In this document: positions 18,554 to 23,360 of the stretch, one piece after another
How the letters are laid out: every line of letters begins with the position of its first letter
Position numbering within the stretch: the stretch's first letter is position 1
NCBI GenBank assembly: GCA_024743275.1
Contig: JANSWW010000010.1
Coordinates: forward strand, 62,001 to 126,000
Source of the DNA: Alphaproteobacteria bacterium
GTDB taxonomy: Bacteria > Pseudomonadota > Alphaproteobacteria > JANSWW01
Direction: 5' to 3'
Length of the DNA: 64,000 bases
Notes under the pieces: model-generated
What the model was told of the DNA's origin: nothing
The model's input: the letters and a program-made list of their open reading frames with translations, nothing else
Databases searched by the model: none
Program-made: the position numbers and the translations under genes

Positions 18554-18850
18554 CCCCCGTTCCCGGCCCTCTGGAGCTACCGGCCCTATCCAAAAAGCCC
18601 AACTGTCATAGTTTCGTGGGCTAACGCCGCTATCAATAGGTGAACGCTGGGGCGGCAGGTCGCTTGTTTCGCACCGGCGAGGCGCGTACCATCCGTTTGT
18701 CTAGGCTGGTTGTCTTAGATTAGGTGGCTGGCTCGACGTTTGCATGGACGGGGATTGCATGGATCGGGGGTTTCGAGGAACACCGGTCGCGGCGGTTGAA
18801 CCACTCCGGAGTGGCCGCCGGTTCTTATGGGGATTTCTTGGGCAGAATTC
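18554..18850. other. intergenic region before the pentapeptide cluster
   Basis: About 297 bases without a convincing gene. It contains a perfect 14-bp palindrome, CCACTCCGGAGTGG (18801-18814), flanked by GGCGG and CCGCC that extend the dyad. This is a candidate operator or hairpin in the leader of the first pentapeptide-repeat gene. I cannot name a clear -35/-10 pair. Confidence 0.4.
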
Positions 18851-20092
18851 ATGACGCCACAACAGATTGCTGAAACGCTTTCCCGTCACGAGGCATGGCT
18901 GAAACGGGGGAAGGGCGGACAACGGGCGAACCTCTCTCTGCAAAACCTCTCGGGCCTGACCCTGCCCAAGGTGAATTTGCGCAACGCCAAGCTCGCCGGC
19001 GCGAACTTCCACCGCGCGGTGATGCAGGCGGGCGATTTCGAGGACGCGGATTTGTTCTGCGTCACCCTCGAGCGCTGCGACCTACGCAAGTCCAATTTCC
19101 GGAACGCCGATCTCCGGGGCGCCAACATCAAGAACTGCAATCTCAACAACGCGGTTCTCGAGGGCGCGGATTGCCGGGGCGGAACCCTTTATGGCGGCGA
19201 CGAAGAGGACGAGGCGAAGTCGCTCAACAACCGCAACGCCACGGGCGCCGACCTCTCCGGTTCGGCCATGAAGCAGGCCAATCTCAATGGGGCAAACCTG
19301 ACCGGCGCGAACCTCACCGGCGTCAACCTCAATGGCGCGACCCTGGTCGGCACCAATCTGACCGGTGCCAATCTCTCCGGCGCCGATCTGACCGGGGCGG
19401 ACCTTAAAGACGCCGACCTCAACGGGGCGGTGGTCGCCAACACGGTGATGAAGGACGCGCAGCTCGATGGCGCGAAGATGGAGAACGTCTCCTTCGAGGA
19501 AGCCGATCTGGCCGGCGCCGATCTCGGCAGTTCCGATCAGGGCCTGCCGCCGGAGATGCTGCAGATCATCAAGCAGCACTATCTCTGGATCCGGTCCAAC
19601 GGCGCACTCGGCACCCGGGCCGAGCTTTCCAAGCAGGACCTCTCCGATCTCAACATGTCCGGCATGAACCTCTCCGGCGCCCAGTTCCGCGAGACGATCT
19701 GCCACCGATCCCGGTTCGCCGCCGCCAAATTCGTCATGTCGGACCTGGCGAAGGCCGACCTCACGGGCATCGACATGCGCGACGCGGTGCTGCAGGGCGC
19801 CAATCTGTCGGACGCGAATATGGAGAACGCGAAACTCATCGGCGCCGATTTCTCGCCGGTCGACCTCAAGGACAGCCAGGGCAACCTGACCGGCCGGCTG
19901 TGGCCCGCCAACCTCGCAGGGGTCAATCTGCAGGGGGCGGACCTGCGCCGGGCCAAGCTCAATCACGCCAACCTGATGGAGGCGAACCTCAAGGGCGCAA
20001 ATCTGAAGGGCTGCGATCTGAGCGAGGCCAACCTCACCGACGCCATCCTCGACGATCACGCCTTCGACGACGCCATCACCGGTCTGGAGTGA
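18851..20092 (+). CDS. pentapeptide-repeat protein, copy 1
   Basis: A 413-residue protein made almost wholly of A(D/N)LxG-type pentapeptide repeats, which fold into a right-handed quadrilateral beta helix. It has no signal peptide or membrane segment, so is probably cytoplasmic. The N-terminal cap M-T-P-Q-x-I-x-x-T-L-x-x-H-x-A-W-L is followed by the first repeat block. A second cap of the same type (I-I-K-Q-H-Y-L-W-I, starting near residue 236) opens a second block, so the protein is an internal duplication. ATG 18851 is preferred over ATG 18827 because the M-T-P-Q start is conserved in the paralogue at 20608. Function is unknown. It is the first gene of a four-gene cluster. Confidence 0.85.
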   Translation: MTPQQIAETLSRHEAWLKRGKGGQRANLSLQNLSGLTLPKVNLRNAKLAGANFHRAVMQAGDFEDADLFCVTLERCDLRKSNFRNADLRGANIKNCNLNNAVLEGADCRGGTLYGGDEEDEAKSLNNRNATGADLSGSAMKQANLNGANLTGANLTGVNLNGATLVGTNLTGANLSGADLTGADLKDADLNGAVVANTVMKDAQLDGAKMENVSFEEADLAGADLGSSDQGLPPEMLQIIKQHYLWIRSNGALGTRAELSKQDLSDLNMSGMNLSGAQFRETICHRSRFAAAKFVMSDLAKADLTGIDMRDAVLQGANLSDANMENAKLIGADFSPVDLKDSQGNLTGRLWPANLAGVNLQGADLRRAKLNHANLMEANLKGANLKGCDLSEANLTDAILDDHAFDDAITGLE

Positions 20093-20454: not shown

Positions 20455-20607
20455 GCCGGGCCGCAAGACAATAACGCGGGTACGCCGCCAAATATCCGAT
20501 GGCGAGAACTCGTTAACCCTATTATCAATTTGAAATAAATGCTGTTTTGTTGCGCTTAGGCCAAATCCTATCGTAAACTCCCGGCGTCCGTGACCGACAA
20601 GAAATCC

Positions 20608-21882
20608 ATGACGCCACAAGACATCCTTGCGACCATAGAAGAACACCAGGCGTGGCTTCAGCGGAAAAGTGGCGGCAAACGGGCCGACCTTTCCGGTCTG
20701 AACCTGTCGGGATTCACGCTCACCGGCTACACGCTCAAATCCGCGAAGATCTCCGGGGCGAACCTCAAGGAAGCGGATATGAGTGGCGCCGATCTCAGCT
20801 ACGCCGATCTCTTCTGCGCCAATCTCGACAGCGCCAATCTGGAAAACGCGACCCTGGTCCGGGCCGATCTCCGGGGTGCCCATATGCGCGGGGTGAATTT
20901 CTCCGGCGCCAATCTCAAGGAAGCCGATATGCGCGGCGGCGCGCTGATCAGCGGCAACGCCACCAGCCGCCCGAGTTTCCTGCCGGCCAACCTCGCCCGC
21001 TCCGATCTCGACCGGGCGAGCCTGGAGAAGGCCAATATGAGCGGGGCCGACCTCACCGGATCGACCATGCGCCAGGCGAATATGGAATCCGCGCTGATGA
21101 CCGGGGCCAACCTCACCCAGGTCAATCTGCAGGGCGCCAACCTATCCGGCGTGGAGCTCTCCGGCTGCAATCTGAGCGACGCGGATTTGAGCGGCGCCGA
21201 TCTGAGCGGCGCCAACCTGACAGGGGCCACGGTCAAGGGGGCCAACTTCAAGGGCGCGGATCTCTCCAGCGCCAACATCCAGAATGTCGATCTGTCGGAG
21301 GCCGACGTGACCGGTGCCATCCTGGCCCAGGAATCCGGCGCGATCACCAAGTCGATCCGCGATATTCTCGCCGAACACAAGGTCTGGATCGAGGCCAACG
21401 GCCGCAAAGGCGTCCGGGCGAGCCTCGCCAAGGCGGATCTATCCTTCACCGACTTCGCCGGTGTCGATCTGTCCGGGGCCGACCTGCGCGGCGCGATCCT
21501 GCGCGGCGCCAAACTCGCCCGGACCCGCATGGTGATGAGTGATCTCGCCAACGCGGACCTTCGCGAGGCGGATCTGAGCGAGGCGGTCCTCGACGGGATC
21601 AATCTCTCCGACGCCGATCTCACCAGGGCGAGCCTGAAAAAGGCCAAGCTCGGGGCCGTCGACATCAAGGGATCGGACGGACGGCCCACCGGCCGGATCT
21701 GGCCGGCCAATCTGGCCGGCGCCACGCTCAAGGACGCCGATTTGAGCCAGGCGATCCTCCGGGAAGCCAATGTCGCCCGGGCCGATTTCTCGGGGGCCGT
21801 GCTGACCGCAGCCGACCTGACGGACGCCAATCTTAAGGGGGCGACCCTGGACGACGCCCAGCGGGCCGCGGCGAAACCGTGA
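20608..21882 (+). CDS. pentapeptide-repeat protein, copy 2
   Basis: A 424-residue paralogue of the protein at 18851. It has the same N-terminal cap (M-T-P-Q-D-I-x-A-T-I-E-E-H-Q-A-W-L), a long run of A-N-L/A-D-L pentapeptides, and a second cap near residue 250 (D-I-L-A-E-H-K-V-W-I) opening a second block. A GTG at 20590 would add six residues; neither start has a strong ribosome site. The 135-base region upstream is clearly AT-rich for this genome and may hold a separate promoter. The stop overlaps the lyase-like gene by 4 bases, so the two are probably coupled. Function is unknown. Confidence 0.85.
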   Translation: MTPQDILATIEEHQAWLQRKSGGKRADLSGLNLSGFTLTGYTLKSAKISGANLKEADMSGADLSYADLFCANLDSANLENATLVRADLRGAHMRGVNFSGANLKEADMRGGALISGNATSRPSFLPANLARSDLDRASLEKANMSGADLTGSTMRQANMESALMTGANLTQVNLQGANLSGVELSGCNLSDADLSGADLSGANLTGATVKGANFKGADLSSANIQNVDLSEADVTGAILAQESGAITKSIRDILAEHKVWIEANGRKGVRASLAKADLSFTDFAGVDLSGADLRGAILRGAKLARTRMVMSDLANADLREADLSEAVLDGINLSDADLTRASLKKAKLGAVDIKGSDGRPTGRIWPANLAGATLKDADLSQAILREANVARADFSGAVLTAADLTDANLKGATLDDAQRAAAKP

Positions 21883-23360
21883 CCCGGGGAGACCTTCCGG
21901 GCATTGTCCTGGAGCGGCGCGCCGACCTCACCCTCGACAGTTTTGCCCGTGCCGCCTGGGGCGGCTCCCCGGTCGCCTTCTCGCACGCCGCCGTCGACCG
22001 CATGACCGCCGCACGCGAAGCCTTTCTCCGCTTGATCGAAGACCCGAACGTTGTGGTCTACGGTGTGACCAGCGGCTATGGCCAGATGGCGAAGGTCCGC
22101 TTCACGCCCGAAGAACGGAAGCGCCACGCGGCCAAACCGCCGCTCGCCTCCAACGCCGCCTTTGGGCGGCCGGCCCCGGACCGGATCGCCCGCGGCATCG
22201 TCTTCGCCCGGCTGGCCAATTTCATCGAGGGACATGCGGCGATCTCGCCGCCCCTGGCGCAGGCGGTGGCGGCGATGCTCGCCCTGCCGTCGCTGCCGCC
22301 GCTTCCCATCGACGGGCACGGCGGTGCCGGGGAAATCACCATTCTTTCCCCGCTGTTTCGGGATGTCGCGCGCGCCCACGACCTCGCCGAAAAGGACATG
22401 CTGGCCCTGGTGAACGGGTCGCCGGCCGCCACAGCGCTGTTGGCCGATCAAGCCCTTGCCGGACGGCGCAGGCTGAGCCGCGCGATCGCCTTGCTCACAC
22501 TCTCGGCCGAAGCGTTGAAGGCACCGATCGAGGCCTATGACGACGCGCTCGACGACCTCTGGAACGATCCCGACGACGCGGCGGTCCTGCGGGAGATGCG
22601 GCGGCTGATGGCCGGCGGCTCGGCGGAAAGACGGCCCTATCAGGCACCGGTGTCGTTCAGAATCGCGCCGCGCCTGCTTGGCAATCTTCACCGGGCCGTC
22701 ACGCGGGCCGAGATCGCCGCCGGCCGTATGCTGGCCGCGGTGACCGACAATCCTGTGTTCCTAGCCCCCGCCCCCATACATCCCGACCCCACCCATCCCG
22801 CCCCCTCCCATCCCAACGGCCGCGTGCTGTCGAACGGTGGTTTCCAAGGCGCGGCATGCCCGCCGGCGCTCGACGCGATCACGGCGGCCTATGCGGATCT
22901 CGCGCAGATCGCCGAACGGCAGGCGGTCAAGATCCTCGACGGTGCGCTCTCCGGCCTCCCCGACCAGCTGATGAGCGGCTGGCCGGAGGATGAACGCTAT
23001 CTCGGCTGTCTTGGCATGTCCGCGGTCGGATGGGCCGAGCGGGCCAAGGTGCAATGCGCGGCGACCTTGCTCCCGGGCTCGGAATCCGGCGGGTTTGGCG
23101 CGAACGACGTGGCGAGCCCGGTCTTCCTCGCCTGGGAAAAGACGGTGGTGGCCGGCGACGCCTTGGACGCGACGCTGGCCATTCTCGCGGTGGTGGCCTC
23201 GCAAGCGCTGCACGTCACGGGACGGCCCGCCCCGCCTGCTTTGGCGCCGGTCCTGGATCAGGTGAGAGAGACCGCGCCGCCGATCGACAGCGCCGTGCCG
23301 CCGGGGCCTCATGCGGGCGGCCTCGCGGAACTCTATGGAACGGAGACATACAGGCTATAG
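21879..23360 (+). CDS. aromatic amino acid lyase homologue lacking the MIO triad
   Basis: A 493-residue protein of the histidine/phenylalanine ammonia-lyase superfamily, clear from Y-G-V-T-S-G-Y-G near residue 60, L-V-N-G-S-P-A-A-T-A near 180 and T-D-N-P-V-F near 290. In active members an internal Ala-Ser-Gly cyclises to the MIO electrophile. Here the matching segment (residues 145-157) reads D-G-H-G-G-A-G-E-I-T-I-L-S, with no A-S-G, so the cofactor should not form. A His-Pro repeat insert (residues 300-314; 22776-22820) follows the D-N-P motif. The start GTG overlaps the upstream pentapeptide gene. It could be a non-ammonia-lyase enzyme, a binding protein or a decayed copy; the frame is intact over full length. 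Confidence 0.82.
   Translation: MTRGDLPGIVLERRADLTLDSFARAAWGGSPVAFSHAAVDRMTAAREAFLRLIEDPNVVVYGVTSGYGQMAKVRFTPEERKRHAAKPPLASNAAFGRPAPDRIARGIVFARLANFIEGHAAISPPLAQAVAAMLALPSLPPLPIDGHGGAGEITILSPLFRDVARAHDLAEKDMLALVNGSPAATALLADQALAGRRRLSRAIALLTLSAEALKAPIEAYDDALDDLWNDPDDAAVLREMRRLMAGGSAERRPYQAPVSFRIAPRLLGNLHRAVTRAEIAAGRMLAAVTDNPVFLAPAPIHPDPTHPAPSHPNGRVLSNGGFQGAACPPALDAITAAYADLAQIAERQAVKILDGALSGLPDQLMSGWPEDERYLGCLGMSAVGWAERAKVQCAATLLPGSESGGFGANDVASPVFLAWEKTVVAGDALDATLAILAVVASQALHVTGRPAPPALAPVLDQVRETAPPIDSAVPPGPHAGGLAELYGTETYRL
22776..22820 (+). repeat. His-Pro minisatellite inside the lyase-like gene
   Basis: Three imperfect 15-base units encode I-H-P-D-P / T-H-P-A-P / S-H-P-N-G. They sit in a loop after the conserved T-D-N-P motif and keep the frame. 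Confidence 0.7.

Follow-up and report, generated by a model that had tools for sequence, protein, structure and literature searches.

A lyase fold without the MIO triad

Which reaction, if any, can a protein with the fold of histidine ammonia-lyase (HAL) catalyse when the Ala-Ser-Gly (A-S-G) triad of its built-in MIO cofactor is missing? The question is raised by a gene in the window, the whole stretch of 64,000 nucleotides analysed here. Annotation by fold would name this gene and its relatives histidine ammonia-lyases, yet the missing cofactor rules out the usual chemistry of that enzyme.

The gene (21879–23360, forward strand) starts with GTG and encodes 493 amino acids in an open frame supported by a Pfam match and by homologues. 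Its product matches the Lyase_aromatic profile (PF00221) over its full length with 199 bits (cut-off 27.3, E 1.5e-58) and reaches 134–140 bits against the HutH models, for which the cut-offs lie above 500 bits (539 for one model, matched at 134 bits). The AlphaFold2 model (pLDDT 94, pTM 0.93) aligns in Foldseek with TAL, HAL, TAM, and ergothionase at TM scores of about 0.83–0.88. Profile score and HAL fold place the protein in the PF00221 superfamily, and the landmarks YGVTSGYG, LVNGS, and TDNP are all present.

At the position of the A-S-G loop, alignment with HAL and with homologues reveals the shortened sequence G-H-G-G-A-G-E-I (22314–22337, forward strand, codons 146–153). Relative to HAL from P. 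putida (GSVG-ASG-DL versus GHGG-(-)AG-EI), A142 is deleted, making the loop a residue shorter than GSVGASGDL, and S143, G144, and D145 correspond to Ala150, Gly151, and Glu152. The MIO position holds neither A-S-G nor another x-Ser-Gly, and no A-S-G occurs anywhere in the 493-residue translation. The absence of A-S-G from an open frame with intact landmarks, as described in the earlier note on this DNA, is thus borne out. The note had also concluded that the usual ammonia-lyase chemistry should be impossible without the serine, which holds in part: judged from the sequence, MIO cannot form in the usual way, but a loss of lyase activity does not follow, since ergothionase is MIO-free and the Tyr, Asn, Gln, and Arg of the site are kept.

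Upstream lie two successive pentapeptide-repeat genes (18827–20092 and 20590–21882, the latter on the forward strand). The TGA stop of the second overlaps the GTG start of the lyase gene by 4 bp (GTGA), and the two are therefore probably co-transcribed. A functional link between lyase and pentapeptide repeats, beside which the earlier note had proposed to look for the conserved loop, is rejected, as no such gene lies beside any homologue at the loci examined.

The carboxylate side of the active site is retained

In HAL, Tyr53, His83, Asn195, Gln277, Tyr280, Arg283, Phe329, and Glu414 are important; mutants of the Tyr, His, Asn, and Glu residues show no or strongly impaired activity, and Tyr53, Asn195, Gln277, and Arg283 serve in catalysis and in positioning the carboxylate (PMC11432326). 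The window protein and its homologues, hereafter the family, retain precisely these four. HAL Tyr53 corresponds to Tyr61 (22059–22061), invariant in alignments A1, A2, and A3, and Asn195 corresponds to Asn179 (22413–22415). Gln277 and Arg283 are found as Gln255 and Arg261 at the ends of Q-A-P-V-S-F-R (22641–22661, codons 255–261), a stretch in which Val258 replaces HAL Tyr280. Also lost are A142-S143, with Ala in the place of Ser143 in nearly all family members, His83, and the catalytic Glu414 (Glu411 of ergothionase), where the window protein carries Asn409 (23103–23105; all these codons on the forward strand). Thus, the family shares with HutH the Pfam family, the fold, and Tyr53/Asn195/Gln277/Arg283 but lacks A-S-G, Tyr280, His83, and Glu414. 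Similarly, it resembles TAL, PAL, and TAM in fold (TM 0.83–0.85 for TAL and TAM) and carboxylate site and differs in lacking the MIO triad and the second catalytic Tyr.

Across an alignment of MIO-containing and MIO-less sequences, Tyr61, Gln255, and Arg261 never vary, and Asn179 and Glu152 are almost as constant. Every sampled MIO-less sequence of the superfamily combines a shortened loop with the loss of Tyr280, whereas this residue is retained by all sampled non-family sequences that have an unambiguous ASG or CSG. Consequently, Tyr280 seems to be lost together with MIO, and the carboxylate side of the active site stays in place.

This invariance bears on whether the family might have abandoned catalysis and turned the lyase fold into a binding or regulatory protein. 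Such a pseudoenzyme would accommodate the joint loss of MIO, Tyr280, and Glu414 as well as the overlap of the window gene with a functionally unrelated pentapeptide-repeat gene. It accounts poorly for the constancy of the site residues, for family genes within catabolic clusters, and for a family gene in the place of hutH beside hutU, and we regard it as improbable.

The window copy departs from its relatives at Gln323, Gly324, and Trp385, where the family usually has His, Asn, and Tyr. These residues lie near the HAL Phe329 region, so the substrate of the window protein may differ.

Several further loop variants were observed. One family paralogue (L112:9132-10823, reverse strand) contains a literal A-S-G in its shortened loop GQDASGE and has Val in the position of Tyr280. 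A separate branch is formed by two MIO-less PF00221 proteins encoded next to each other (L107:8945-12024, reverse strand), the loops of which read GMGM-DGET and ALGM-DGEM. Another MIO-less lineage is represented by a PF00221 gene on a Rhizobium etli plasmid (L024:5944-7437; loop GSAGYLTHNAH, Leu at Tyr280), directly 3′ of apparent amino-acid-type ABC transporter genes.

A distinct alphaproteobacterial family under purifying selection

A GTDB-wide contig scan identified 15 homologues with 47–57% identity to the window protein, from records titled Dongia, Kiloniellales, Rhodospirillales, and Hyphomicrobiales. All 15 contain the loop G-[QNH]-G-[GC]-[AP]-G-E-I, with G146, G148, G151, E152, and I153 invariant among them. 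The family is present in 16 of 385 alphaproteobacterial genomes (10 of 277 genera), and in a phylum-wide draw its matches are confined to Alphaproteobacteria; Rhizobium tropici CIAT 899 and R. jaguaris carry it on large plasmids. Close family pairs display dN/dS values of 0.07–0.22, indicating that the family is under purifying selection.

A decayed or chance-mutated HAL copy would explain the missing triad and nothing more. Against it stand the full-length frame, the high-confidence fold, and, decisively, the loop common to all homologues together with the low dN/dS, so we give this possibility practically no weight. The isolated mutant that could have undone the earlier note's argument is thereby excluded. 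Its view that the gene is not decayed is upheld, and the distinct family that it had proposed to look for exists, with G-x-G-x-[AP]-G-E-I in 15/15 homologues of one clade. A single family copy (L048, G489:C68:253063-254280) has an in-frame TGA and may therefore be a pseudogene.

In the tree, an unrooted quick-method reconstruction with some long branches from which the loop and Tyr280 columns were left out, the family forms a single, long-stemmed clade with an SH-aLRT support of 100, and ergothionase and its relatives are grouped apart. None of the NCBIfam models matched is specific to the MIO-less family, and among open-access papers we found none on MIO-less PF00221 members besides ergothionase. 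The family is a conserved, distinct, and uncharacterised group of bacterial enzymes with the HAL fold and without the built-in cofactor.

The family parallels ergothionase without belonging to it

In the passage of PMC13405746 that cites Maurer 2019, ergothionase is described as an MIO-free trimethylamine lyase of HAL fold that acts on ergothioneine. The enzyme from Treponema denticola (PDB 6s7j/6s7q) resembles the family in its fold (TM about 0.84; profile E 4e-23), the absence of MIO, the loss of HAL Tyr280, and the retention of Tyr53, Gln277, and Arg283. Its loop carries the same one-residue deletion (SSIG-EGDI versus GQGG-AGEI in the family), and Leu in QDPLSFR stands where the family has Val in QAPVSYR.

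In contrast, sequence identity is only 17–18%, the loop motif is EGD instead of AGE, and ergothionase retains His83, Glu414 (its Glu411), and the Lys of QKT, all three of which are absent from the family. Asn409 takes the place of Glu411, and a GFVQVGY-type stretch without Lys aligns with QKT, indicating that the acid/base set differs. Moreover, the unrooted quick-method tree sets the family in its own clade. For lack of Glu411 and the QKT Lys, we describe the family as working like ergothionase rather than as being ergothionase.

Two ergothionase-like genes on Rhizobium plasmids (L023 and L025, loop GSIG-AAD) are likewise MIO-less with a shortened loop and Leu in place of Tyr280, but sequence and tree place both with ergothionase. 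They are followed by genes for an ornithine cyclodeaminase (OCD) homologue, 67% identical to the OCD of the family locus L053, and for a PhnD-like protein with 38–40% identity to that of the family locus L012. The OpuC-type ABC transporter subunits of L023 are 70–74% identical to those of L019, another family locus.

Gene neighbourhoods suggest a link of the family to amine release and (thio)urocanate breakdown

Genes in GC-rich loci were called by codon scoring and homology, and neighbours are named by NCBIfam matches above cut-off unless noted. In L133 (genome G747), a TMAO demethylase (1250 bits, cut-off 1100), a choline/betaine-type permease, a ProV-like ATPase, and a binding protein precede the family gene, which is followed by a trimethylamine (TMA) monooxygenase (835 bits, cut-off 675). 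Parts of this set recur in L132 and L135 from the same genus, and L061 has a Tdm homologue 6.3 kb from the family gene. Tmm, Tdm, and TmoXWV constitute the known set for TMA oxidation (PMC8918994). Tmm is encoded by 8 of the 16 family-bearing genomes of the class and by 12 of the 369 others; counted by genus, the proportions are 3/10 and 9/267 (p=0.006). This genome-level co-occurrence with Tmm is the context feature to which the enrichment statistic applies; in the genome of the window, no Tmm match reached the threshold.

A second group of neighbours relates to (thio)urocanate. In L063 (genome G086), genes for S-methyl thiourocanate hydratase (891 bits, cut-off 880) and S-methyl thiohydantoin desulfurase (409 bits, below the cut-off of 450) lie directly 5′ of five tandem family genes, and oligopeptide-type ABC genes are present as well. 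L018 has the order UbiX, UbiD, ErtE (572 bits, cut-off 520), ErtD (788 bits, cut-off 600), family gene; L019 shows the same order with ErtD/ErtE homologues and adds an OpuC/ProV/OsmF-type ABC transporter, a type also represented by the ergothioneine importer EgtU (PMC9732360). ErtE, UbiX, and UbiD are also near the family gene in L055. The ErtD/desulfurase link holds for subsets of the family-bearing genomes; its extension to all of them is rejected. In L053 and L062, a dimethylglycine-dehydrogenase-like gene adjoins the family gene and an MttB-like gene lies 7.5 kb off, while L012 has the order OCD homologue, PhnD-like protein, family gene.

In two genomes of one genus (L056 and L134), hutC, hutU, and the family gene follow each other in that order; the scores in L056 are 273 bits for hutC (cut-off 220) and 945 bits for hutU (cut-off 375). 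Family members could be ordinary ammonia-lyases, for example replacements of HAL, that form MIO from another tripeptide or need none for ammonia loss; in G365, which has this hutC–hutU–family gene arrangement and is 98% complete, no other PF00221 gene was found. However, nearly all members have Ala at Ser143, their loop lacks one residue, and Tyr280, the partner of MIO, is lost. Furthermore, 16 of 19 family-bearing genomes searched, the window's included, contain a long HAL-type PF00221 match of at least 444 bits, which leaves this explanation very improbable. Replacement of the organism's own HAL is rejected for the window genome, which has canonical hutH and hutU close together (C23:237772 and C23:240089).

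Other neighbours are more varied. Beside the family gene, a UbiD decarboxylase is found repeatedly (L018, L019, L020, L055, L064), in most cases together with UbiX, and we know of no UbiD step in ergothioneine breakdown. In the Dongia-type clade (L050, L051), a MaoC-like gene overlaps the 3′ end of the family gene, and carnitine-dehydrogenase-like genes are near it in L009 and L010. These neighbourhoods, together with a ring pocket rebuilt by the loss of HAL His83 and Glu414, might reflect an enzyme without MIO in which the retained carboxylate site and catalytic Tyr serve another chemistry on non-betaine substrates, varying by subclade: loss of a different leaving group, or isomerisation or hydration of an acrylate. 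Since this explains less well the recurrent genes for TMA oxidation, dimethylglycine-dehydrogenase-like proteins, betaine-type transporters, and ErtD/ErtE, we consider it unlikely, if less so than a pseudoenzyme.

Possible mechanism of a probable MIO-free amine lyase

From sequence, predicted fold, gene context, and the ergothionase parallel, we infer that family members are, on balance, probably MIO-free C–N lyases; their substrates would be betaine-type amino acids, aromatic or with an imidazole, and the amine released would be tertiary (trimethylamine). The MIO electrophile serves to activate a primary amine, and a betaine substrate would not require it, since a quaternary ammonium leaves readily by itself. 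Ergothionase demonstrates that the absence of MIO is compatible with lyase chemistry for a tertiary-amine leaving group. Candidate substrates are ergothioneine, S-methyl-ergothioneine, hercynine, or relatives. Arg261, Gln255, and Asn179 would hold the carboxylate, Tyr61 would take the β-proton, and the rebuilt loop with the invariant Glu152 would close the former MIO space; the product would be a trans-acrylate of the urocanate type. Given the kept site residues and the amine-release and (thio)urocanate neighbours, an MIO-free lyase fits better than the re-purposed fold that the earlier note had suggested.

The substrate probably differs among subclades; as guesses, hercynine suits the hutU loci and S-methyl-ergothioneine suits L063. 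At the loci examined, betaine-related neighbours are absent from the window, the Dongia-type clade, and others, and several large subclades have none. This counts against the amine-lyase assignment, as do the recurrence of a UbiD/UbiX pair in Rhizobiaceae, the acid/base set that differs from that of ergothionase, and the absence of Tmm from the window genome at the threshold applied. For the window copy, which has no informative neighbour, a betaine would be a candidate substrate by way of the loci of its relatives.

MIO-free elimination on the HAL fold is already known; what makes the family worth testing is its position in a clade of its own, its 24 paralogues in G086, and the absence of a curated model. 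As amine lyases, its members would be a second natural solution for cofactor-free C–N elimination on this fold and candidates for the bacterial formation of trimethylamine from betaines of soil and plants, and their paralogues would lend themselves to studies of the joint loss of MIO and Tyr280.

Expansion of MIO-less PF00221 proteins in single genomes

The 24 family members of G086, an alphaproteobacterial genome of 2.7 Mb, are organised in scattered tandem arrays (L063, L065, L066, L080, L108-L114), and the genome also encodes seven urocanase and two thiohydantoin-desulfurase homologues. More broadly, and with somewhat more doubt than conviction, we suggest that the family consists of unrecognised, substrate-diversified MIO-free betaine lyases of an origin separate from ergothionase, which would feed TMA and acrylates derived from several natural betaines into catabolism, and that G086 may be specialised on imidazole betaines.

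Also in G086 (L100/L103), an MIO-type lyase outside the family precedes thiourocanate hydratase and thiohydantoin desulfurase, which counts against the amine-lyase assignment of the family. In L103:6814-11606 (contig C3), this lyase, with ASG and Tyr280, lies directly before the genes for the desulfurase (599 bits, cut-off 440) and the hydratase (963 bits, cut-off 930) and is perhaps a thiohistidine ammonia-lyase.

A different expansion occurs in G245 (L055:2359-4239, reverse strand; L117; L118), with up to six more MIO-less PF00221 proteins that begin with apparent signal peptides and are encoded in the vicinity of the family gene and of an ErtD gene. The two that were read carry the loop EGD, and these proteins are possibly secreted relatives of ergothionase.
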